64,000 bases of DNA. It comes from Cupriavidus consociatus (GTDB taxonomy: Bacteria; Pseudomonadota; Gammaproteobacteria; Burkholderiales; Burkholderiaceae). A model generated the notes under the pieces. It saw nothing but the letters and a program-made list of their open reading frames with translations. It made no database searches and was not told where the DNA came from. Shown here piece after piece: positions 49,698 to 62,085 of this stretch; position 1 is the stretch's first letter; the number at the start of each line of letters is the position of its first letter. The stretch is taken from the NCBI RefSeq assembly GCF_017814975.1, contig NZ_JAGIQA010000002.1, positions 186,001 through 250,000 on the forward strand, written 5' to 3'. A program made the position numbers and the translations under genes.

Positions 49698-51134
49698 ATG
49701 ATCCAACAACCCCAGTCCGGCAACGGACTTTCCCACGGCCTCAAGCAACGCCACATGACCATGATCGCGCTTGGCGGCGTGATCGGCGCCGGCCTGTTCG
49801 TCGGCAGCGGCGTCGTCATCAAGTCGGCCGGCCCCGGCGCGGTCCTTTCCTTCCTGATCACCGGCCTGCTGGTGGTGCTGGTCATGCGCATGCTTGGCGA
49901 GATGGCCTGCGCGCTGCCCGGCACGGGCGGCTTCTACGAGTATGCGCGCGAAGCCTGGCGCGACCGCCCCGCGGTGGGCAACCTCGCCGGCTTCCTGACC
50001 GGCTGGATGTACTGGTACTTCTGGGTCATCGTGGTGGCGCTCGAAGCCGTCGCCGGCGCCGACCTGGTGCGCTACTGGCTGCCGGACGTGCCTAACTGGA
50101 TCATCAGCCTGGTGCTGCTGGTGATGCTGACGCTGACCAACCTGGTATCGGTCAAGTCGTTCGGCGAGTTCGAGTTCTGGTTCGCCTCGATCAAGGTCGC
50201 GGCAATCATCGTGTTCCTGTTCGTCGCCGGCGTGTACGTGCTGGGTCTGGCTCCCGGCGCCCAGGGCATGCAGGTGGCCAACCTGACCGTCAACGGCGGC
50301 TTCCTGCCGAACGGCATCGTGCCGGTGCTGACCGGCGCGGTCGCGGCCACCGGCTTCTACTTCGGCGCCGAGATCGTCACCATCGCCGCCGCCGAGACCG
50401 CCGAGCCGCAGAAGGCAGTGGCCAAGGCCACCAGCTCGGTGATCACGCGCGTGCTGGTGTTCTATGTCGGCTCGATCCTGCTGGTGGTATGCCTGGTGCC
50501 GTGGAACTCCAACAGCATCGCCACGCCGTACGTCAGCGCGCTGAACGTGATGGGCGTGCCCGCCGCCGCGCAGATCATGAACGCGATCGTGCTGACCGCG
50601 GTGCTGTCGGCGCTCAACTCCGGCCTGTACGCTTCGTCGCGCATGCTGTTCGCGCTGACCCGCCGCGGCGATGCGCCGCAGTCGCTGGCCCGCGTCAGCC
50701 GCAACGGCGTGCCGGTGCGCGCGATCCTGGTGGCCACGCTGTTCGGCTACGGTGCGGTGGTGATGTCCTATGTCTCGCCCGATACGGTGTTCGCCTTCCT
50801 GGTCAACTCGTACGGCACCGTCGCCATCTTCGTCTACATCCTGATCGCGATCTCGCAGCTGCGCCTGCGCTCGCGGCTGGAACGCGAAGCGCCGGGCCTG
50901 CTGCGGGTGCGCATGTGGTGCTTCCCGTATCTCACCTATGTCGCGATCCTGGGCATGCTGGGCATCGTGATTGCCATGGCCTTTATCCCCGACCAGCGCA
51001 CCCCGCTTGCGCTGGGGGTGGTCAGCCTGCTGATCCTGCTGATTGCCTACGGCGCGCGGCAACTGTTTCGCCGTGGCGCGGAGCCGGTAGTGCCGCTGGC
51101 AGAGATGCCAGGGCCCAACCTCCACAAGTATTGA
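49698..51134 (+). CDS. APC-family amino acid permease (GabP-like), likely taurine importer
   Basis: 478-aa amino acid/polyamine/organocation transporter with 12 helices. The diagnostic first helix and loop read LKQRHMTMIALGGVIGAGLFVGSG, followed by GEMACALPGTGGFYEYAREAWRD, as in GABA and aromatic amino acid permeases. A CAGGAG ribosome binding site precedes ATG 49698. It is followed by tauR, tauX and tauY in the same direction, and in taurine-degrading bacteria such a gene can replace the TauABC transporter. Taurine (or GABA/beta-alanine) is inferred from context. Confidence 0.85.
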   Translation: MIQQPQSGNGLSHGLKQRHMTMIALGGVIGAGLFVGSGVVIKSAGPGAVLSFLITGLLVVLVMRMLGEMACALPGTGGFYEYAREAWRDRPAVGNLAGFLTGWMYWYFWVIVVALEAVAGADLVRYWLPDVPNWIISLVLLVMLTLTNLVSVKSFGEFEFWFASIKVAAIIVFLFVAGVYVLGLAPGAQGMQVANLTVNGGFLPNGIVPVLTGAVAATGFYFGAEIVTIAAAETAEPQKAVAKATSSVITRVLVFYVGSILLVVCLVPWNSNSIATPYVSALNVMGVPAAAQIMNAIVLTAVLSALNSGLYASSRMLFALTRRGDAPQSLARVSRNGVPVRAILVATLFGYGAVVMSYVSPDTVFAFLVNSYGTVAIFVYILIAISQLRLRSRLEREAPGLLRVRMWCFPYLTYVAILGMLGIVIAMAFIPDQRTPLALGVVSLLILLIAYGARQLFRRGAEPVVPLAEMPGPNLHKY

Positions 51135-51197
51135 TGTGCCACGCGGCGCGCCAGTGCAGTAAGCTGGCGCGCTGTGCCGTTTAGCTGCCCCCGCACC

Positions 51198-52769
51198 ATG
51201 AGCCTCAAGTCCCCCTCCACCATGTGGTTCCAGCTGTTCCAGCAGCACGCCCTGTCCGGCCTGAGCCTGCAGGGCAAGATCCGCCAGATGCTGGTGTCGG
51301 CGATCCTTGACGAGCAACTGCCGCAGGGCGAGCCACTGCCGAGCAGCCGCGAACTGTCCGCGCAGCTGCGCGTGGCGCGCAACACCGTGGTGCTGGCTTA
51401 CCAGCAGCTGGTCGATGAAGGCTACCTGGTGGCGCGCGAACGCAGCGGCTATTTCGTCAATCCCGAGATCCTCGGCACGCGCGTCAGCGGCGTGGCCTCG
51501 CTGCGCGGCGAGCCGGTGCCCGCACGCGGCGGCGAACCGGACTGGGATCGGCGCTTCGTGTTCCGCCCCACGCAGCAGCGCAATATCGTCAAGCGCGCCA
51601 ACTGGCGCGACTACACGTACCCGTTCATCTACGGCCAGTACGACCCCACGCTGTTCCCCACCGCCGACTGGCGCGAATGCTGCCTGAAGGCGCTCAGCGT
51701 GCTCGATATCCACGACTGGGCCCAGGACATGATCCTGCGCGACGACGAGTCGCTGGTGCAGCAGATCCGCACGCGCGTATTGCCGCGCCGCGGCGTCTGG
51801 GCCGGCGCCGACGAGATCGTGGTCACCGTGGGCGCGCAACAGGCGCTGTACCTGCTGGCCGACCTGCTGGTCAGCCCCGATACGCCGGTCGGCATCGAAG
51901 ACCCCGGCTACCCGGATGCGCGCAATATCTTCGGCTCGCATACCTCGCATCTCGTGCCACTGCCGGTCGACGGCGAGGGCCTGGTGCTATCCGACGCGCA
52001 GCGCGCGTGCGACTACGTCTACGTCACGCCCGGCCACCAGTGCCCCACCACGGTCACCATGCCGCTCGCCCGCCGCCAGGCGCTGCTGCGCCAGGCCGAG
52101 GAGGCGGACTTCGTGCTGATCGAGGACGACTACGAAAGCGAGAGCCGCTTCGAAGGCGATCCCACCCCAACGCTCAAGAGCCTGGACCGCGGCAACCGCG
52201 TGATCTACGTCGGCAGCCTGTCCAAGAGCCTGGCGCCGGGGCTGCGTATCGGCTATGTCGTCGGGCCGGCGCCGCTGATCGCCGAGTTGCGCGCGGCGCG
52301 GCGGCTGATGCTGCGGCATCCGTCCGCGTATATCCAGCGCGCGTTCTCGCTGTTCCTGTCACTGGGCCACTACGACGCGCACCTGCGGCGCCTGTCGGCG
52401 GCGCACCGCGAGCGCGCCGAGGCGGTGCTGGCGGCGCTGGCCGCGCATATGCCCGACTTCCGCCCCGTGCCGATCGCCGGCGGCGCGTCATGCTGGATCG
52501 AAGGGCCGCCCTGGCTCGACGCCGACGCGCTGGCGCGCCTGGCCGAGCTGCAGGGCGTGCTGATCGAGCCCGGCAGTGTTTTCTTCATGGCCGAGCCGGC
52601 GCCGCGCAACGTGTTCCGGCTGGGCTATTCGTCGATCTCGCTGGACCGCATCGAGCCCGGCATCCGCGTGCTCGCTGGCGTGGCGCGTGAGCTGCAGGCC
52701 ACCGGCGGCGCGGCAGGCGCGGCCGCAGCGGACGCCACCGTCACTTCCCACGCGCGCCCCGCGGCCTGA
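51198..52769 (+). CDS. tauR: MocR-type PLP-dependent regulator, TauR-like
   Basis: 523-aa GntR/MocR regulator. The N-terminal winged helix is at residues about 24-90 (GLSLQGKIRQMLVSAIL, PLPSSRELSAQLRVARNTVVLAYQQL). A class I aminotransferase-like domain follows, with the PLP lysine in SLSKSLAPGLR (Lys343) and YVTPGHQCPTTVTMP. TauR activates taurine utilisation genes in Rhodobacter and Paracoccus. Position between permease and tauXY supports the same job. ATG 51198 starts the protein; an in-frame GTG lies eight codons earlier. Confidence 0.85.
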   Translation: MSLKSPSTMWFQLFQQHALSGLSLQGKIRQMLVSAILDEQLPQGEPLPSSRELSAQLRVARNTVVLAYQQLVDEGYLVARERSGYFVNPEILGTRVSGVASLRGEPVPARGGEPDWDRRFVFRPTQQRNIVKRANWRDYTYPFIYGQYDPTLFPTADWRECCLKALSVLDIHDWAQDMILRDDESLVQQIRTRVLPRRGVWAGADEIVVTVGAQQALYLLADLLVSPDTPVGIEDPGYPDARNIFGSHTSHLVPLPVDGEGLVLSDAQRACDYVYVTPGHQCPTTVTMPLARRQALLRQAEEADFVLIEDDYESESRFEGDPTPTLKSLDRGNRVIYVGSLSKSLAPGLRIGYVVGPAPLIAELRAARRLMLRHPSAYIQRAFSLFLSLGHYDAHLRRLSAAHRERAEAVLAALAAHMPDFRPVPIAGGASCWIEGPPWLDADALARLAELQGVLIEPGSVFFMAEPAPRNVFRLGYSSISLDRIEPGIRVLAGVARELQATGGAAGAAAADATVTSHARPAA

Positions 52770-52907
52770 AAGCGTTGGCTGGCGCTGGCCCAAGCGATTG
52801 TCCCGAACTGGCGCTACAGCGGCGCGGCCGGCTTCCCTATCCTCGAGTCATGGCCGGTTCCGCAGCGTCTTGCGCGGGCCGGTGGACAACACTCAGGAGA
52901 CCAAGCC

Positions 52908-53324
52908 ATGTCCGATCGCAACACCGCCGCGGGTATCGAACTGCTGCAAGCCTTCAACGACGCCTGGAACCGTCACGACCTCGAAGCCCTGATGGGCTTC
53001 ATGGCCGATGACTGCGCCTTCCACGGCGTGGCCGGCAGCGAACTGCTGGGCCGCAGCTTCATCGGCCGCGACGCCGTGCGCGAAGGCTTCCAGCTCGCGT
53101 GGCAGACCTTCCCCGACGCGCAATGGGTCGATGGCGAGCACTTTGTCGTGGGCGACCGCGGCGTCAGCGAATCCACCTTCAAAGGCACCCGTGCCGACGG
53201 CGCCCGCATCGAAGCGCGCATGGTCGACGTCTTCACCTTCCGCGACGGCAAGATCGCGGTGAAGAACGCCTACCGCAAGGACCGCCCGCCGGTGGTGGCG
53301 CCGGTGGTGGCCGCGCAAGCCTGA
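52908..53324 (+). CDS. tauX: Taurine dehydrogenase small subunit, SnoaL/NTF2-like (TauX)
   Basis: 138-aa NTF2-like protein (GIELLQAFNDAWNRHDLEALMGFMADDCAFHGVAGSELLGRSFIGRDAVREGFQLAW ... DGARIEARMVDVFTFRDGKIAVKNAYRKDRPP). In Paracoccus and Cupriavidus, taurine dehydrogenase consists of such a small subunit and a FAD subunit. The FAD subunit gene follows after 16 bp. Ribosome binding site CAGGAG upstream. The function of the small subunit in catalysis is not known in detail. Confidence 0.85.
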   Translation: MSDRNTAAGIELLQAFNDAWNRHDLEALMGFMADDCAFHGVAGSELLGRSFIGRDAVREGFQLAWQTFPDAQWVDGEHFVVGDRGVSESTFKGTRADGARIEARMVDVFTFRDGKIAVKNAYRKDRPPVVAPVVAAQA

Positions 53325-53340
53325 ACGCAGGAGACGCGCC

Positions 53341-54783
53341 ATGGAAGCCGTAGTCCCCCGCAGTGCCCTGGGCGGCGAGCACACGACCGCGCCGTCGCGT
53401 CCGTACGACCCCGCCTACGACCCGCTGCATACCCCCACCCCCGGACAGGGCCGCGAGTACGCGCCCACCTACTGGATCGGCACCGCCGGCACGCCGCCCG
53501 CCGACGACGGCCCGATCACGCATGACATCGACGTCGACGTGGCCATCATCGGCTCCGGCTTCACCGGCCTGACCTGCGCGATCTTCCTGGCGGAGCAGTA
53601 CGGCATCAAGGCCACCGTGCTCGAAGCCAACCGTGTCAGCTGGGGCTGCAGCACGCGCAACGGCGGCCAGGCGCAATGCGCGTCGGGACGGCTCAAGCGT
53701 TCGCAATGGATCCAACGCTACGGACTCGATACCGCACTGCGCCTGCATGAGGAAGTGTGCGACGGCATGGAGACCTTCAAGGGGCTGATCAAGAATATCG
53801 ACTGCGACCCGCAGCCGGGTGGCCACCTGTATATCGCGCACCGCGACAAGGTGATGCCGGGGCTGGAGAAGGAAGCGAAGATCCTGCGCGAAATCTTCAA
53901 CTACGACGCGCGCATCCTCGATGCCGACACCGTGCGCCGCGAATACGTCGACGACAAGGAAGCCGCGGGCGCCATGCACGAGCCCGAAGGCATCGGTATC
54001 CACGCCGGCAAGCTGGCTTTCGGCTACCTGCGCCGCGCGCGCGAGCTGGGCGCCAAAGTGCATCCGTCCAGCCCCGTGACCGGCTGGGAAACGCGCAACG
54101 GCGTGCACTACCTGCGCACTCCCGGCGGCATCGTGCGCGCCCGCGCGGTGGGCGTCGCCACCGGCGGCTACACCTCGCAGTCGCTGCACCGCGAGCTCAA
54201 GAACCGGCTGTTCCCGATCCTGTCGAACTCGATCGTCACGCGCCCGCTGACCGCCGATGAACTGGCGGCGTGCAACTTCCGCACCACGCAGGTCATCACC
54301 GACACGCGCATCCTGCGCCACTACTACCGGCTGATGCCCGACGGCCGCCTGCAGATCGGCAGCCGCAGCGCGATCACCGGCAACGACGCGCCGCAGGACC
54401 AGTACAAGCAGAAGCTGATCGCCGACATGTACCGCAAGTTCCCGGCGCTGCGCGGCATCCAGATCGACTACTCGTGGTGGGGCTGGGTCGACGTCAGCCA
54501 CGACATGATGCCGCGCATCACGCAGCCAGATCCGTCGCAATCGATCTACTACGCGATGGGCTATGGCGGCAATGGCGTGATGTACTCCGCGCAGGCGGGC
54601 AAGCGGCTGGCGGCGCTGATCGCCGGCAAGGAATCGTCGCTGCCGCAGCTGCCGATCTTCCGCTCGCCGCTGCCGTTCCCGAATGTGCGCGAGATGGTGG
54701 AGTCGCAGATGTTCGCGCCGTTCCGCCGGATGGGGCAGCGGGTGCTGTATCACTGGTATCACTGGAAGGATGATGTGTTTTGA
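53341..54783 (+). CDS. tauY: Taurine dehydrogenase large subunit, FAD oxidoreductase (TauY)
   Basis: 480-aa DAO-family flavoprotein that deaminates taurine to sulfoacetaldehyde and passes electrons to the respiratory chain. The FAD-binding GxGxxG lies at residues 71-76 (IIGSGFTG), followed by TVLEANRVSWGCSTRNGGQAQCASGRLKRSQWI, as in gamma-glutamylputrescine and taurine oxidoreductases. C-terminal YAMGYGGNGVMYSAQAGKRLAALIAG completes the FAD site. Length, the tauX neighbour and tauR support the assignment. Its product is the substrate of Xsc, encoded 30 kb upstream. An oxidase acting on another amine is the alternative. Confidence 0.85.
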   Translation: MEAVVPRSALGGEHTTAPSRPYDPAYDPLHTPTPGQGREYAPTYWIGTAGTPPADDGPITHDIDVDVAIIGSGFTGLTCAIFLAEQYGIKATVLEANRVSWGCSTRNGGQAQCASGRLKRSQWIQRYGLDTALRLHEEVCDGMETFKGLIKNIDCDPQPGGHLYIAHRDKVMPGLEKEAKILREIFNYDARILDADTVRREYVDDKEAAGAMHEPEGIGIHAGKLAFGYLRRARELGAKVHPSSPVTGWETRNGVHYLRTPGGIVRARAVGVATGGYTSQSLHRELKNRLFPILSNSIVTRPLTADELAACNFRTTQVITDTRILRHYYRLMPDGRLQIGSRSAITGNDAPQDQYKQKLIADMYRKFPALRGIQIDYSWWGWVDVSHDMMPRITQPDPSQSIYYAMGYGGNGVMYSAQAGKRLAALIAGKESSLPQLPIFRSPLPFPNVREMVESQMFAPFRRMGQRVLYHWYHWKDDVF

Positions 54784-55206
54784 AGATGGGCGGCCGCATG
54801 GCCGCACTGCTTCTCCCATCCAAGCGCACTAGCTGGCATTCGGCGAGCCACCAAGCTCGCCCATTGAAGCGCCGGTCACATTGCCAGCGCCGGCATCCAT
54901 GCCATGCGGTGCCGCGCCGATCAAACGCCCACTTCCCTACCTCGGTTTAACTCACGAGCCAAACGCCGGGCGAACCCCGAGTCGCTTGAGCAATAGCCCG
55001 TGTACACACCGTCCCGTTAGGCCCTCGCTTTTCCACGCTCAATGCGCCCGCATATCGGCGCGCGCACACGCCTACCTTCAAAAGGCGGACGATTCCACGC
55101 GACTAATCGGAATCGTCGTATCGCCGTTCGGCCTTTCACCTCCTACTTTTCAAATACCGCACATTTTGGTGCGGCAACTCGGTATCACGTAGGAGGCATC
55201 ACCGTC
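54784..55206. other. 423-bp gene-free junction before the RiPP-like operon
   Basis: Transition from GC-rich host DNA to the AT-richer island. GCGGCC-GCAT-GGCCGC (54790-54805) directly behind tauY may terminate that operon. GACGATTCC-N12-GGAATCGTC (55088-55117) is a perfect 9-bp inverted repeat and a candidate operator. CCGCAC-N6-GTGCGG (55157-55174) forms a small hairpin just before the ribosome binding site AGGAGG (55191-55196). No other gene is recognised. Confidence 0.6.
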
Positions 55207-55278
55207 ATGAAAGAAATCAAGCTCGAATCCGCGAAAATGGCGAACTGGACCCAAATTGGCGAACCCATCAAGAAGTAA
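55207..55278 (+). CDS. Putative RiPP precursor peptide (23 aa)
   Basis: Very short reading frame starting at ATG 55207 with a near-perfect ribosome binding site (AGGAGG, 55191-55196, ten bases before the ATG). The peptide begins MKEIKLES, has its only Trp at position 14 within ANWTQIG, and ends GEPIKK. No Cys, Tyr or His is present. It is directly followed by a strong hairpin (55284-55309) and then, with a separate ribosome binding site, by a SagB-type dehydrogenase gene. This is the usual layout of a ribosomally made, modified peptide: precursor, attenuating stem-loop, enzymes, exporter. The size is like PqqA. I do not recognise a known precursor family, and function is inferred. Confidence 0.6.
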   Translation: MKEIKLESAKMANWTQIGEPIKK

Positions 55279-55283
55279 TTAAC

Positions 55284-55309
55284 TCAGGCGCCCCAGCCGG
55301 GGCGCCTGA
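55284..55309 (+). terminator. Perfect 11-bp hairpin after the precursor gene (attenuator/stabiliser)
   Basis: TCAGGCGCCCC-AGCC-GGGGCGCCTGA, stem 11 bp, loop 4. No U-run follows and GGAGGG (55311-55316) comes immediately after. It is more likely an attenuator or mRNA-end stabiliser that sets precursor above enzyme expression than a full terminator. Confidence 0.75.
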
Positions 55310-55323
55310 CGGAGGGAATTGAT

Positions 55324-56424
55324 ATGAACCTGCATATTAACCCCAATATATTTCTGATTTTTACACAAGATGGCGTTGTGCTATGGGACTTCGAAAGACA
55401 CCATCAATATGCCCTCGCTCCGGACTATGCTTCTCGCCTACTGGAAATTGCTTACAACGGCAGCACCCTCGCAACGGACACGCGGATTGATAGCGAGCTA
55501 CAAAGAAATAATATCGTCGCTAATCACGTGTTCGGACAGCATGATTGGGGCTGGGATATTCTTGCGCGCATATTTCATGTTGGAACCAAGGACATTCCAC
55601 AAAATTCAACACCCACGACCGCCCGGCAGTGGGCCATGAATCATGCTGCACTGTGCGTCGACACATTGAATCGCGAAATTCCGCCCTATAGAACTCAGTT
55701 CGCATGCCCCACCATTTCCTTGCCTGCGCCAGACCTATCGACCGTTGACAGTAAATCGCTCTGGCAAAGCTTGCTTGAGCGTCGGACCTGCAGAGAGTTT
55801 CGACAGGAGAGCGTGAATCGAGAAACACTAAGCACCATATTATATTCCACGTTCGGATTTCTAAGTGAGCGAGAAGAAGGAATCAATAAATACGTTCCAA
55901 AATATTTGCGCCAAAGAAGAAGTAGCCCATCTGGCGGCGGCTTGAACTCGACCGAGGTTTACATTTGGGCCCTTCGCATTGATGGATTACGTCCTGGGAC
56001 GTACCACTATAGCCCTGCCACCCACAGCCTCATGTTGATTAACGAAATCCCCGATCCAGATGTCCTGCCCGCTGTGCTGATGGGTCAGTATTTTTCCTCC
56101 GGGCTAGCTTTCGGCGCTTTCATCGCTAGCAGATTCGATCGAATGTGGTGGAAATACGGTCACTCAAGAGCCTATCGCGTATCGCTATTGGACATTGGCC
56201 ATCTATCTCAAACGTTTCAGCTGACAAGCACTGCGTGCGGCCTGAAGACATGGATATCCGCCGCATTCAAGGACAGCGACATTGAAAGATTGCTGGATAT
56301 CAAGTCGCTTAGTGAGCAGGTCCTTCTCTTCGTTGGCGCCGGCTATAGCAACGGCGAAGACCTCGATGCTGCGAGCCGACAGGTACTTGCCGAATACTCA
56401 ACGAGCAGCACAGATGAAACCTGA
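55324..56424 (+). CDS. SagB-type FMN dehydrogenase with RRE-like N-terminus
   Basis: 366-aa protein. Residues about 145-355 form a nitroreductase/SagB domain. The FMN-binding start reads ERRTCREFRQ (152-161), the SPSGGGLNSTEVYIW segment (201-215) replaces the PSGGGLHPxEvY motif of SagB, and a late YRVSLLDIGHLSQTFQLTSTACGL matches the family. Residues 1-60 read as three strands and a helix (FLIFTQDGVVLWDF, QYALAPDYASRLLEIAYNG), resembling PqqD-type peptide-recognition domains. SagB enzymes oxidise azolines to azoles or otherwise dehydrogenate peptides, usually beside a YcaO gene, which is absent. The next gene overlaps by 11 bp. Confidence 0.8.
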   Translation: MNLHINPNIFLIFTQDGVVLWDFERHHQYALAPDYASRLLEIAYNGSTLATDTRIDSELQRNNIVANHVFGQHDWGWDILARIFHVGTKDIPQNSTPTTARQWAMNHAALCVDTLNREIPPYRTQFACPTISLPAPDLSTVDSKSLWQSLLERRTCREFRQESVNRETLSTILYSTFGFLSEREEGINKYVPKYLRQRRSSPSGGGLNSTEVYIWALRIDGLRPGTYHYSPATHSLMLINEIPDPDVLPAVLMGQYFSSGLAFGAFIASRFDRMWWKYGHSRAYRVSLLDIGHLSQTFQLTSTACGLKTWISAAFKDSDIERLLDIKSLSEQVLLFVGAGYSNGEDLDAASRQVLAEYSTSSTDET

Positions 56425-57385
56425 AAACTACCCACCGACGACCATCTACGACGGGGAGACCGGATATCTGCTTGAGTGGGACAAGCAGTCCGCTGTCCGG
56501 GTGAGACCCTACAAATACAACTGCCAACCCACTAATAAGAATGACCCGAAGTCAGGAAACTGGTTCTTTCCCTCCGCCCTTTCTTTTCTGTCTCATCCTC
56601 TGCTGGCGCATCTCACGCCAGATCAAGTACAGGAACTCCTGGCAAGGAACCTGGTTAGCTTTCTAGAGTACACCACGTTGCTCGAGCATAGGATAGTCAA
56701 TAGATCAGTCGAACACATCGTCCATAATTGCCTACCGGTCGCAGTTCCGCATGGCATGTGTATGGATGCTTTACGCATTTATACCGACGAAGGATATCAT
56801 GCTGTCATGTCCGCAGATGTGGCACATCAAGTCTCCGAAATTTTCGGAATATCGCAAACTACGCGCCAATTCAGTCGAATATCGCGCCTTGAGGCGCTGG
56901 CTTCGGGCTTTCAACAACAGGCGCTCGGATGGTTCCTTATTGGCTTTGTTTCGGAAACGGCCATAACCAAGGAATTCGCCAAAATGGGGCGATCTGCCCT
57001 CGTACCTGCGGTCCACAGTATGCTTATGGATCACTTGTCAGACGAATGGAAGCACAGCCGATGCTTTGTCCGTATGTTCTCGTACCTCTGGCCGCGCCTC
57101 ACTCGCCCCGAACGGGAATTCTGCGCGACTCAGCTACCAGTAATCATTCAGGAATGCTTTCGCCTAGACGAGAGTCTCCTTGAGCGCGACCTGGCCGCAT
57201 TAGGTCTTGATAGCAACGTAGCGCAAACAATTTCGGCGGAAAGAAATAACGAAACGGCAAATCGTCTGCGTGCAAAGAATGGGGCAAGTGCAACGCTACA
57301 TGCCCTGCGAGAATGCGCATTCTTCAGCGAGCCGCGATATGTAGCCAATTTTGCCAAACATGGTCTTATTGATCCGGCGGGCTGA
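56414..57385 (+). CDS. AurF-type diiron oxygenase
   Basis: 323-aa helical protein. The complete ligand set of the AurF (p-aminobenzoate N-oxygenase) family is visible with near-identical spacing: Glu91, Glu126 and His129 (DEGYH), Glu181 (FVSETAI), His207, Glu211 and His214 (DHLSDEWKH). AurF-type enzymes N-oxygenate amines to hydroxylamines or nitro groups, or hydroxylate carbon, using O2. ATG 56414 lies inside the end of the SagB-type gene, so the two are coupled. In this setting the amine could be on the precursor peptide (N-terminus, Lys) or on a released product. Which one is open. Confidence 0.85.
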   Translation: MKPENYPPTTIYDGETGYLLEWDKQSAVRVRPYKYNCQPTNKNDPKSGNWFFPSALSFLSHPLLAHLTPDQVQELLARNLVSFLEYTTLLEHRIVNRSVEHIVHNCLPVAVPHGMCMDALRIYTDEGYHAVMSADVAHQVSEIFGISQTTRQFSRISRLEALASGFQQQALGWFLIGFVSETAITKEFAKMGRSALVPAVHSMLMDHLSDEWKHSRCFVRMFSYLWPRLTRPEREFCATQLPVIIQECFRLDESLLERDLAALGLDSNVAQTISAERNNETANRLRAKNGASATLHALRECAFFSEPRYVANFAKHGLIDPAG

Positions 57386-57403
57386 TCCGACAGGAGACCT
57401 ATA

Positions 57404-58606
57404 TTGCCAGACACTACCCCCAAAAACCATCGCTTACTGCTTCTTATCAGTCTTCTGATTCTATTGAGCGCTGTACCGCTCGACGTCATGCTACCGTCGT
57501 TTCCCGCGTTGGCCACCCACTTCCACACCGGGATTGACAATATAGCACTTTCGATCAGCATCTTCTCCATAGGCTTTTCGATTGCACAATTGTTCGTCGG
57601 TCCGCTATCCGATCGCTTCGGACGCAAGAAGCTGCTGATGATTGGAATTCTTCTTGCCCTTGTCGGAGCGACGGGTTGCATCTTCTCCTATAACTATGGC
57701 GTCTTCATTGCTTTTCGGGTTCTCCAATCCATCGGATGCGCCTCATTTGTTCTAGCCCAGGCCATTGTTCAGGACGCATTCAAGGGAACAGAAGGCGTGA
57801 GAACAAGAATCTTGACGACGACGTTGTCCGGCATATTTATTTCCTGCTCACCTTTGCTCGGATCCATTCTTCAATCCGCTTTAGGATGGGAGGGTAGTTT
57901 CTTACTATTCTCAATCATTTCCTTGATCATACTCTTTCAGGTTCACTATCGCTTCGAAGAAACTTCCAACATTCATCATGGCAGCATGCTGTTTTATGGA
58001 CGAGCCTACCTCCGGATACTTGGAAACCGACCTTTCCTGATCTACTCAGTGATTGGGGCTTTAGCCTTTTCCTGCCACCTGGCCTTCATCATTGTGTCAC
58101 CGACAATATTCATTGCCGGGCTTAAAATGAACAACTATCATTATTCCTTAGTGCTACTGGGTTACGGAACTGCCTATATAGCAGGTGGATATTTGGCATC
58201 ATACGCGGCGAAAATAATCGACACTCGCCAACAGATCAAGCTAGGGCTGCTGCTGATGATGCTATCCGGATTCCTCATGCTCGCGATGTCGCACTATGAA
58301 GCAGAGGCAGCCCTGACAGTTCTATTGCCGATGCTTGCCTGTACGGCAGGAACCGTATTTGTTCGTCCCGCGACTGCCACCGAAGCGATGAATCTATTCG
58401 ACGAGATCGCGGGTACGGCAGCAGCTGCGGGCAGCACTATAAGGTTCTGCGCTGCCGGGACCATCAGCGCCTTGGTCAGCGTAATGGGCAACAATACCAT
58501 TCTCAATCTGAGTTGGGCGATAATTATGTCGAGCATCACCAGCATACTCCTGTTCGCGTACTTGCAGACACCCATAGCAAAGGGATCCGCGGAATCGGAA
58601 GCCTAA
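57404..58606 (+). CDS. MFS exporter, Bcr/CflA (DHA1) type
   Basis: 400-aa drug-efflux-type transporter with 12 helices. ILLSAVPLDVMLPSFPALATHF and QLFVGPLSDRFGRKKLLMIG are the DHA1 helix 1 and loop 2-3 motifs. The start is TTG 57404 with a strong ribosome binding site (CAGGAGA, 57391-57397); no ATG is available at that distance. It lies 18 bp behind the diiron oxygenase and is the likely exporter and self-protection factor for the product. Base composition is clearly more AT-rich than in the flanking chromosome. Confidence 0.85.
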   Translation: MPDTTPKNHRLLLLISLLILLSAVPLDVMLPSFPALATHFHTGIDNIALSISIFSIGFSIAQLFVGPLSDRFGRKKLLMIGILLALVGATGCIFSYNYGVFIAFRVLQSIGCASFVLAQAIVQDAFKGTEGVRTRILTTTLSGIFISCSPLLGSILQSALGWEGSFLLFSIISLIILFQVHYRFEETSNIHHGSMLFYGRAYLRILGNRPFLIYSVIGALAFSCHLAFIIVSPTIFIAGLKMNNYHYSLVLLGYGTAYIAGGYLASYAAKIIDTRQQIKLGLLLMMLSGFLMLAMSHYEAEAALTVLLPMLACTAGTVFVRPATATEAMNLFDEIAGTAAAAGSTIRFCAAGTISALVSVMGNNTILNLSWAIIMSSITSILLFAYLQTPIAKGSAESEA

Positions 58607-58613
58607 TATCCTG

Positions 58614-59078
58614 ATGATCAAACTTTCCCCTCTTACTGAAGCTGAGTTTGAGAAATTCTCGCAGCGCTCGGTATCCGATTATGCGGAAAACATGACGAAA
58701 TGCTCAACTCTGACCATGTCTACGGCATTATCAAAAGCCGGCCAGATTTTCCGCAGGTACTTGCCACATGGACCAGACACACCGAATCATCATTTATTGT
58801 CAATTCGCCCAATATATGCAACGCATGCCGTAGGAGACATCTGGCTTCAAGTCAAAAAAAAAGATAAATCCGCATTCCTGTTTGACATCTACATTTATCC
58901 CGACTATCGCGGACTTGGTTATGCCAAGAGTGCCCTCTTGGCAGTTGAAGGCTATGTTCGGACACTTGGCGTATCCACAATCCGACTCCATGTATTCGGA
59001 CATAACCATGCTGCGCGAAGTCTGTATGGCAAGCTTGGCTATGCGGACAGTCATGTGACGATGATGAAAGACCTGTAG
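58614..59078 (+). CDS. GNAT-family N-acetyltransferase
   Basis: 154-aa GNAT protein. The acetyl-CoA-binding motif A reads IYPDYRGLGYAKSALLAVEGY, followed by RLHVFGHNHAARSLYGKLGYADS. ATG 58614 lies 7 bp behind the exporter stop, so it is the last gene of the island operon. It could acetylate the peptide product as a tailoring step, or inactivate it for self-resistance, as in microcin C-type systems. Neither can be decided from sequence. Confidence 0.85.
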   Translation: MIKLSPLTEAEFEKFSQRSVSDYAENMTKCSTLTMSTALSKAGQIFRRYLPHGPDTPNHHLLSIRPIYATHAVGDIWLQVKKKDKSAFLFDIYIYPDYRGLGYAKSALLAVEGYVRTLGVSTIRLHVFGHNHAARSLYGKLGYADSHVTMMKDL

Positions 59079-59236
59079 CGCGTACGACCATTTTTACGCT
59101 TGTCGGACCCCCACCGACACCCAAACCGGACCCCACCGCCTCCTCACCCTCCATGCCGCCGCAGTATGATGCCCAAGTCTCCCACCCCCGGGAGCATCGC
59201 GGCCGCATGCCGGCCGCAGTGCATCAGGAGGCACGC

Positions 59237-60415
59237 TTGGACCACCCCCGGCCGCTCCCGTCCGAACCCGCGCGCCCTGGCGACCTGGTCGTCGCCCGGC
59301 CTGAAGGGTTGTATTGCCCGCCCGGCGATTTCTATATCGATCCGTGGCGCCCGGTCGAGCGCGCGGTCATTACCCACGCCCACTCCGACCACGCCCGCTT
59401 CGGCCATGCGCATTACCTGTGCTCGGATCCCGGCCGCGGCGTGCTGCTGGCACGGCTGCCCGGCATCCACCTCAACACCCTGCCCTACGGCGAACGCATC
59501 ACCCATCACGGCGTCACGCTGAGCCTGCATCCGGCCGGACACGTGCTCGGCTCGTCCCAGGTGCGGCTGGAATACGGGGGCCAGGTCTGGGTGGCCTCCG
59601 GCGACTACAAGCTGGAGGCGGACGGAACCTGCGACCCGTTCGAGCCGGTGCCGTGCGATACCTTCATCACCGAAAGCACCTTCGGCCTGCCGATCTACCG
59701 CTGGCCGTCGCAGGCAACGCTGATGGCGGAGATCTTCCACTGGTGGCAGGCCAATGCGCAGGCCGGCCGCGCCAGCGTGGTCTACGCCTACACCTTCGGC
59801 AAGGCCCAGCGCATCCTGCATGGCCTGCTGCACCACGCCGGCGTCGATGGACTTCCCGGGCCGGTGATCGTGCATGGCGCGCTGGCCACGCTCAACGCCG
59901 CCTACGCCGACGCCGGCGTGGCGCTGCCGCCGATGGTGCTGGCGTCCGAGCTGCCGCCGCGCAGCCCGCTGCTGCGGCAGGCGCTGGTGGTGGCGCCGCC
60001 ATCGGCGCAACGCTCGGCGTGGCTGCGGCGCTTCGGCGATGCGTCCGATGCCTTTGCCAGCGGCTGGATGCAGTTGCGCGGCACGCGCCGGCGCCGCGGG
60101 GTCGACCGCGGCTTTGCGCTGTCCGACCACGCCGACTGGCCGGGGCTGCTGCAGGCAATCAGTGCCACCGGCGCTGGCCGCATCATCGTGACCCACGGCA
60201 ATGTGCCGGTGATGGTGCGCTACCTGAACGAACGTGGCTGGCAGGCGCAGGCGTTCGAGACCGAGTACGGCGACGACGATGAATCGGTGCGCGTGGAGGC
60301 GCAGGCGTCTGAAGCGGGGGATGGGGTCCACAATGGGGCCGATGACGGGGCCGATGACGGGGTCGGCGATAAAGCCGCCGAAAACGGCGCCAGCGAAGAA
60401 CAGGCCGCCCCATGA
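59237..60415 (+). CDS. Ligase-associated DNA exonuclease (MBL/beta-CASP-like)
   Basis: 392-aa metallo-beta-lactamase-fold nuclease of the bacterial DNA-repair cluster. It shows GLYCPPGDFYIDPWRPVERAVITHAHSDHARFGH with the HxHxDH zinc motif, AGHVLGSSQVRLEYGG, and GFALSDHADWPGLL near the C-terminus. TTG 59237 is chosen because AGGAGG (59226-59231) lies five bases before it; an in-frame ATG at 59153 would add 28 residues without domain character. The C-terminal 40 residues are a low-complexity Asp/Gly/Ala run. The stop overlaps the DNA ligase start (ATGA). Confidence 0.85.
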   Translation: MDHPRPLPSEPARPGDLVVARPEGLYCPPGDFYIDPWRPVERAVITHAHSDHARFGHAHYLCSDPGRGVLLARLPGIHLNTLPYGERITHHGVTLSLHPAGHVLGSSQVRLEYGGQVWVASGDYKLEADGTCDPFEPVPCDTFITESTFGLPIYRWPSQATLMAEIFHWWQANAQAGRASVVYAYTFGKAQRILHGLLHHAGVDGLPGPVIVHGALATLNAAYADAGVALPPMVLASELPPRSPLLRQALVVAPPSAQRSAWLRRFGDASDAFASGWMQLRGTRRRRGVDRGFALSDHADWPGLLQAISATGAGRIIVTHGNVPVMVRYLNERGWQAQAFETEYGDDDESVRVEAQASEAGDGVHNGADDGADDGVGDKAAENGASEEQAAP

Positions 60416-62085
60416 AAGCCTTCGCCGACCTCTACGCCGCGCTCGACGGCACCACCTCGACCAAGGCCCGGCTGGCCGCGCTGGTCGGCTACCTGCGTGT
60501 CGCGCCGCCGCGGGACGCGGCGTGGGCCGTTTACTTCCTGGCCGGCGGCAAGCCACGGCAGATCGTCCCGGTGTCGGTACTGCGAGAACTCGCGCGCGAA
60601 GCCGCCGGCCTGCCCGACTGGCTGTTCGAGGAGAGCTACCAGGCCGTGGGCGACCTCGCCGAAACCATCGCGCTGCTGTTGCCTGAACCCATGGACGCCG
60701 ACCACGCCGGCCTGGCCGAATGGGTCGAGCAGCGCCTGCTGCCGCTGCGCGGGCTGCCGCCGGAAGACCTGATGCCGCGCCTCGACGCGCTGTGGCGGCC
60801 ACTCGACGCGCAAGGCCGGCTGGTGCTGTTCAAGCTGATCACCGGCGCCTTTCGCGTCGGCGTGTCGCGCCTGCTGGTTACGCGCGCGCTGGGCGAGGTG
60901 GCGGGCATCGATCCCAAGCGCGTGGCCGAGCGCATGGTCGGCTACACGGACCTGTCGGCGCGTCCCGATGCCGCGCGCTTCCTCGCCCTGCTGGCGCCGG
61001 AGAGCGACGACGACCGCCAGCTGCGCGCCGGCGGCCAGCCCTACCCGTTCTTCCTCGCGCATCCGCTGCAGGCACCCGTCGAGCAGTTCGGCGACGTGCT
61101 CGGCGGCCTCGGCGGCTGGCTGGTCGAATGGAAATGGGACGGCATCCGCGCGCAACTGGTGTGCCGCGGCGGGCAGACCTGGCTGTGGTCACGCGGCGAG
61201 GAACTGATCACGGAGCGCTTCCCGGAGATCGTCGATGCCGCGGCAGCCCTGCCCGATGGCACGGTGCTCGACGGCGAGATCGTGATCTGGCAGCACGGCC
61301 GCGTGCAGCCGTTCGCGTTGCTGCAGCAGCGCATCGGCCGCAAGACGCTGAGCGCGAAGCTGCTGCGCGATGCGCCGGCGATCCTGATGGCGTACGACCT
61401 GCTCGAATGGCAGGGCGAGGACTGGCGCACCCGGCCGCAGGCGGAGCGCCGTGCGCGGCTGGAGCAGGTGGTCGCCAGCCACATCCATCCCGCGCTGGAG
61501 CTGAGCCCGCTGGTCGACGCCGACAGCTGGGAGCACTACGCGCGGCTGCGCGATGCCTCGCGCGACCTTGGCGTGGAAGGCTTCATGCTGAAGGCGGCGG
61601 ATGCGGCCTACGGCGCCGGCCGCACCAAGGACGTGGGCGTCTGGTGGAAATGGAAGATCGACCCCTATTCGGTCGATGCGGTGCTGATCTACGCGCAGCG
61701 CGGACATGGCCGCCGCGCCAGCCTCTATACCGACTTCACCTTCGCGGTATGGAACGCGCCGCAGGGTACGCCGGGGCGGACGCTCGTGCCGTTCGCCAAG
61801 GCCTATTCCGGACTGACCGACCAGGAGATGCGCGCAGTCGATGCCATCATCCGCCGCACCACCGTCGAGAAATTCGGCCCGGTGCGCAGCGTCGAGCCCA
61901 CGCAGGTGTTCGAACTCGGCTTCGAGGGCATTGCCCGCAGCGGCCGCCACAAGAGCGGCATCGCGGTGCGCTTCCCGCGCATGCTGCGCTGGCGCACCGA
62001 CAAGCCCATCGAGGAAGCCGACACCCTGGCCTCGCTGGAAGCCATGCTGCCCGGTGCCACCCCGCCCCGGGAGGACGCCGCATGA
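60412..62085 (+). CDS. ATP-dependent DNA ligase (Lhr-cluster type)
   Basis: 557-aa ATP-dependent DNA ligase. An N-terminal helical domain (residues 1-200, with [22 protein letters not shown]) precedes the adenylation domain with the nucleotide-accepting lysine Lys241 ([10 protein letters not shown]), [38 protein letters not shown] and an OB-fold end ([25 protein letters not shown]). It belongs with the exonuclease and Lhr-type helicase, with ATGA overlaps on both sides, a conserved repair operon in proteobacteria. Confidence 0.92.

Follow-up and report, generated by a model that had tools for sequence, protein, structure and literature searches.

The operon at positions 55207–59078 (forward strand) of the window, the whole 64,000-nucleotide stretch of a Cupriavidus consociatus contig (NZ_JAGIQA010000002.1, positions 186,001–250,000) analysed here, begins with a 23-codon gene and a stem-loop, after which come the genes for a SagB-type dehydrogenase, an AurF-type oxygenase, an MFS exporter and a GNAT acetyltransferase, all in one direction. 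We consider it probable that this operon encodes the pathway of a ribosomally synthesized and post-translationally modified peptide (RiPP), in which the 23-residue peptide is the precursor and SagB and AurF modify its core, because the precursor is conserved and under selection, its core is tied to the second enzyme, losses of that enzyme are nested within the family, precursors occur in tandem, and the N-terminus of SagB has a predicted fold like that of leader-recognition (RRE) domains. Two marks of a RiPP pathway, a conserved encoded precursor beside modifying enzymes and a predicted RRE domain, are found. The precursor gene (55207–55278; ATG at 55207, TAA at 55276–55278) encodes the peptide MKEIKLESAKMANWTQIGEPIKK and is preceded by the Shine–Dalgarno site AGGAGG (55191–55196). 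It is followed by the genes for SagB, a flavin mononucleotide-dependent dehydrogenase of 366 amino acids (aa) with an N-terminal RRE-like domain (55324–56424), the 323-aa ferritin-like diiron oxygenase AurF (56414–57385), a 400-aa Bcr/CflA-like MFS exporter with a TTG start (57404–58606), and an accessory 154-aa GNAT (58614–59078). An earlier first-pass annotation of this DNA had described a tiny gene with AGGAGG, a strong hairpin and four close co-directional genes, which the coordinates confirm: the SagB and AurF genes overlap by 11 bp, AurF and MFS lie 18 bp apart, and MFS and GNAT 7 bp. Its identification of the four proteins was upheld by matches to PF00881 and TIGR03605 (SagB), PF11583 (AurF), PF07690 (MFS) and PF00583 (GNAT).

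The precursor was compared across 103 SagB loci, comprising the window, two other Cupriavidus loci (L011 and L012), 15 Burkholderiaceae-relative loci, 55 from Pseudomonadaceae (40 plus 15 shorter), 28 from relatives of an AurF-less Pseudomonas (20 plus 8 shorter, one from another family) and two from plasmids. Left out were matches in G1073, G1083, G1084 and G1095, which came without a locus sequence, frames of 646–665 aa in G847, G915, G924, G926, G692 and G1057, and a second match, a 359-aa frame, in G971. A short upstream open reading frame (ORF) was assigned in all 103 loci; in six of them, with an interrupted SagB frame or a wrongly placed SagB start, this was done manually. In L011 (MTKIILESAKMANWTQIGAPIKK) and L012 (MKKITLETAKMANWTQIAAPKKK) the precursor recurs in the same place at 83% and 74% identity. 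The window peptide reads as a leader, MKEIKLE-SAKM, with the core from about A12-N13-W14-T15 onward, and the leader pattern together with a ribosome-binding site was found in 96 of the 103 SagB upstream regions versus 2 of 3,758 random 300-nt stretches from the same loci. Seven regions fall outside the pattern. In L062, L118, L136 and L138 the SagB frame is interrupted or its start wrongly placed, in L113 the leader is displaced by a single residue, and in L141 and L142, both on plasmids, the short ORF peptides do not fit it, so that these two precursors are assigned by position only. The precursor frame is under purifying selection and its changes are mostly synonymous: the ratio of non-synonymous to synonymous change (pN/pS) is 0.46 for 66 distinct AurF-type precursors, 0.26 for the three from Cupriavidus and 0.31 for 13 of the carbamoyltransferase type, compared to 0.95 to 4.8 in shifted frames. 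M1, E7, A12 and N13 are invariant in 77 of 77 AurF-type peptides, with no insertion or deletion from M1 to N13 (the 78th AurF locus, L138, was not placed in that comparison). The first-pass annotation had made its reading hang on conservation of the upstream frame in homologous loci, and a family-specific short ORF is indeed present in 78 of 78 AurF loci, as well as in 15 of 15 loci with a carbamoyltransferase. Family precursors span 20–58 aa, those of 20–30 aa being easily missed by gene callers, and in L049, L053 and L189 leader and core are duplicated in tandem within one polypeptide.

A short ORF and a stem-loop ahead of enzyme and efflux genes are also the layout of an attenuator, and the ORF might instead be a regulatory leader peptide controlling transcription or translation, of the sort that precedes some efflux and antibiotic-resistance genes, with SagB and AurF acting on a free metabolite. 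The 11-bp stem-loop between precursor and enzymes (55284–55309) is an inverted repeat with a folding energy of −25.1 kcal/mol for the gap alone. Perfect stems of 10–11 bp occur in the window, L011, L012 and L048, the same structure in different letters; 69 of 99 precursor–SagB gaps fold with z below −2 versus mononucleotide shuffles, and a perfect stem of at least 8 bp is present in 31 of the 99 compared to 58 of 792 coding stretches. Runs of four or more T in 40 of the 99 gaps favour attenuation, as does an inverted repeat that also lies upstream of the ORF in many loci. In the window this repeat is CCGCAC-N6-GTGCGG (55157–55174), a possible operator or 5′ untranslated hairpin. L011 and L012 have a counterpart in a comparable position, altered in letters or extent. 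For the window, 13% of shuffles do equally well; the share is 10% or less in 56 of 77 AurF loci. In contrast, the window hairpin has no T-run, the residues of the ORF change with the downstream enzyme, leader and core are tandemly duplicated inside one polypeptide in three loci, and SagB bears a predicted RRE domain. We regard attenuation as unlikely.

The core motif tracks the second enzyme. In all 78 AurF loci the core is A-N-[LWF] at a fixed spacing from a Glu, and in all 15 carbamoyltransferase loci it is S-N-[DN]-A-Y; the second enzyme of this sister branch matches PF02543 and PF16861 (carbamoyltransferase) in L050. In a midpoint-rooted tree of 97 SagB sequences, built by a quick search with SH-aLRT support, the AurF-less Pseudomonas loci L101, L102, L103 and L172 form a clade with support of 99, nested in a fork of AurF loci supported at 96, and their cores are A-A-F or unrelated, with no A-N. 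Because all four share both neighbours, a methyltransferase (PF10672) and a dihydroxy-acid dehydratase (PF00920), with 40 of the 52 long AurF loci, deletion of AurF at this shared site is the most likely explanation. Likewise, L058 and L061 branch within the carbamoyltransferase loci and have neither that enzyme nor S-N-D-A-Y. Screening 180 genomes of the family, together with 85 relatives of G1214, for further AurF losses yielded one new locus (L235 in G1251). Natural experiments of this kind, with AurF and Asn absent together or a carbamoyltransferase accompanied by another core motif, make the enzyme–substrate assignments directly testable. Two observations weaken the link between core and second enzyme. 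It is backed by three and two independent contrasts, whereas a significant test would take six or more, and L048 keeps A-N-W although its AurF is reduced to a fragment (BLAST E 4e-5) in a decayed operon where precursor and SagB are intact and no MFS was found. The hairpin, clear in the closest relatives of the window, is weaker and not universal across the family.

The window SagB scored 119.5 bits against TIGR03605 (cut-off 78.4), matched PF00881 as well, and carries no second domain family. Its structure model (pLDDT 88.5) has ThcOx, BmdC and McbC among the nearest folds, with ThcOx as the top Foldseek match. Residues 1–69 (55324–55530) are predicted to form an RRE or peptide-clamp domain: when residues 1–96 were modelled (pLDDT 85.2), the N-terminus matched leader-bound lasso B1 proteins, ThcOx, MccB and PqqD by fold comparison, suggesting that it folds like the RRE domains with which RiPP enzymes bind leaders. 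For ThcOx, N-terminal peptide-clamp domains are likewise described (PMC5108345). A profile of the SagB N-terminus against 13 PqqD sequences was not significant, with controls in the same range, and a Pfam scan of 47 SagB relatives gave no PqqD match. The ribosomal precursor proposed in the first-pass annotation thus gains support from the predicted RRE domain, the tandem precursors and the enzyme-linked core motifs. Among more distant SagB relatives (L063–L066, about 390–430 aa), no leader-like short ORF was found within 400 nt upstream.

The azoline oxidases ThcOx, McbC and SagB partner a YcaO cyclodehydratase on Cys/Ser/Thr cores, and the window SagB shares their nitroreductase fold. A thiazole/oxazole-type (TOMM) pathway with its cyclodehydratase encoded elsewhere would be in keeping with the statement in PMC12636437 that RiPP-cluster nitroreductases usually accompany azole-installing YcaO proteins. 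Unlike the azoline oxidase systems, no YcaO was found with the window SagB, the search covering the four operon proteins and 29 flanking ORFs and not the rest of the genome, and neither the window precursor nor most AurF-type cores contain Cys. An azole pathway was rejected on these grounds and is very improbable. The 29 flanking ORFs came from eight loci (window, L012, L107, L112, L113, L114, L116 and L190); 19 had a Pfam match at 1e-5 and 10 had none, and no NRPS (nonribosomal peptide synthetase), YcaO or radical SAM domain was detected among them. NRPS-linked AurF pathways of the fragin/mangotoxin type exist, and the first-pass annotation had named such a partner as what would speak against a ribosomal product; no NRPS gene accompanies the SagB/AurF pair in these flanks. 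Furthermore, SagB, AurF and MFS are the only genes common to all 52 long Pseudomonas-type AurF loci.

The window AurF scored 75.5 bits against PF11583 (cut-off 29.6), the family of the AurF/CmlI-type diiron N-oxygenases. E91, E126, H129, E181, H207, E211 and H214, invariant in 32 of 32 aligned sequences including the window, align with what we take to be the seven metal ligands of AurF, and a metal site is predicted there. Unlike AurF and CmlI, the protein is encoded beside a ribosomal precursor and not in an aminobenzoate or NRPS pathway. A scan of genome contigs with the window AurF protein found one relative only. The exporter matches PF07690 and scored 193.6 bits against the Bcr/CflA model TIGR00710, just under its cut-off of 200.9; all 78 AurF loci have an MFS gene, and MFS and LysE exporters are known to move small molecules. 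Of 78 loci with 4,300 nt or more of sequence beyond the SagB start, four have GNAT, each with an A-N-W-T core; in L112, which also has that core, GNAT was not found by BLAST or by reading the ORFs. A candidate GNAT remnant in L048 was rejected as not significant (BLAST E 0.029 over 17 residues).

From these data we infer a reaction order, sites, chemistry and a small product size. The leader, M-K-x-I-x-L-E, would be gripped as a β-strand by the RRE domain at the SagB N-terminus, presenting the C-terminal half of the precursor (A-N-W-T...) as the core. The flavin domain of SagB, without a cyclodehydratase partner, would then most likely dehydrogenate a core residue, our best guess being Cα/Cβ of the aromatic or leucine after Asn, W14 in the window. 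The AurF diiron enzyme would next oxygenate the invariant Asn13, at best guess on nitrogen, either the side-chain amide or the α-amine once trimming exposes it. Host peptidases would trim the peptide, the MFS pump would export the product, which is probably a small amino-acid-like molecule, and in some A-N-W-T operons GNAT might cap it, for tailoring or self-protection. This retains the N-oxygenated or dehydrogenated product suggested in the first-pass annotation, as an inference. The operon may also be a RiPP pathway in which AurF spares the Asn and acts on another atom, by β-hydroxylation or on an alkene formed by SagB, with Asn kept for binding. AurF relatives are known for arylamines and free α-amines and not for peptide amides, the window protein reached 40.1 bits against the 4-aminobenzoate N-oxygenase model NF045603 (cut-off 620), and independent losses are few. 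On the other hand, A-N is the only invariant core pair in AurF loci (77 of 77), and the nested clade without AurF does not have it. We find this alternative possible, if rather doubtful.

Next, we compared the operon with described systems. Among the closest are the pfl/pos (OS3) clusters of Pseudomonas, which likewise combine a RiPP precursor, a nitroreductase/SagB-type domain without YcaO, GNAT and transporters (PMC12636437, PMC7726476). In the former paper the nitroreductase domain, which has no YcaO partner, is described as forming Z-dehydrophenylalanine, a precedent in favour of the RiPP reading; in the latter, Takeuchi 2020 describes the OS3 cluster, which differs from the window operon. 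The pfl/pos clusters have a long precursor (85 aa in Os17), an MNIO–nitroreductase fusion (650 aa in Os17) and a HEXXH enzyme. In contrast, the family described here has a precursor of 20–58 aa, a stand-alone SagB of about 350–370 aa with a predicted RRE domain, and AurF or a carbamoyltransferase. The window SagB shows no fused second domain and no HEXXH family was found among the four window operon proteins, which places the operon outside the pfl/pos type. Pantocin A, PQQ (pyrroloquinoline quinone) and microcin C are small products made from very short ribosomal precursors; there E1-like or radical SAM enzymes act first, and SagB and AurF are absent. The nearest named SagB subfamily is TIGR04511 (SagB_rel_DH_2, putative peptide maturation dehydrogenase); all 47 aligned relatives match it, and the window protein reaches 149 bits, far under the curated cut-off of 240. 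The operon is thus by content not a TOMM pathway, because no YcaO was found among the proteins and ORFs searched, not of the TIGR04511 type, because its score lies under the cut-off, and neither a 4-aminobenzoate N-oxygenase pathway nor of the pfl/pos type. No published combination of SagB with AurF, or with a carbamoyltransferase, beside a short precursor was recognised in a search that left subscription journals mostly aside, and the impression at first pass that SagB plus AurF without YcaO or radical SAM fits no nameable class stands.

On this evidence from sequence, we read the pathway as an undescribed RiPP type, with an RRE–SagB core and interchangeable second enzymes. The full proposal is a RiPP class built on that core, in which AurF N-oxygenates Asn to give a small N-oxygenated, dehydrogenated product, a carbamoyltransferase or nothing can take the place of AurF, and members perhaps extend to alphaproteobacteria and Bacillota; we offer it tentatively, as quite possible. 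If true, it would represent a widespread RiPP type that has so far gone unnoticed, and would extend AurF-type oxygenation to ribosomal peptides. A SagB match at E 1e-20 or better was found in 57 of 398 Pseudomonadaceae species genomes; 54 of the 57 hold such a locus, 49 of them with AurF.

The operon has a G+C content of 46–54%, compared to 64–75% for the surrounding chromosome, and is most likely an insertion, because its flanking genes are adjacent in other Cupriavidus loci. For this comparison 57 Cupriavidus genomes were searched, the downstream flanking gene was found in 42 and 30 loci were opened. In 12 of the 30 the flanking genes are direct neighbours, about 86–372 bp apart (three distances calculated by hand), compared to 4,370 bp in the window; in the other 18, including those of the window itself and of the L011 genome, no upstream flanking gene was found within range. 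In L011 (Cupriavidus sp. amp6) the operon sits at the same site as in the window. Between the two, the four enzyme and transporter proteins share 53–68% identity and the flanking proteins 89–98% (window 49698–62085), suggesting replacement of the operon or very fast divergence. In L012 the operon occupies another genomic site.

Several further arrangements were observed. In the Pseudomonas loci (L101–L191), the upstream inverted repeat is often GTCAC...GTGAC. The sister branch (L049–L057, L059, L060, L062, L137, L139 and L187; Burkholderiaceae and some Pseudomonas) combines a 29–58-aa precursor, SagB and an O-carbamoyltransferase-like protein, with MFS in 14 of 15 loci, and by gene content is a second undescribed RiPP-like operon type. 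L189 (3900–8083) holds a two-unit tandem precursor, SagB and a LysE-type exporter instead of MFS, followed by an ORF with an RRXRR domain and an aminotransferase. Finally, SagB relatives, most of them distant, turned up in 93 records of a plasmid collection, and two of these records were opened. Both L141 (a Priestia plasmid, Bacillota) and L142 (a Maritalea plasmid, Alphaproteobacteria) have a short ORF, a hairpin, SagB and MFS, possibly a minimal version of the pathway.

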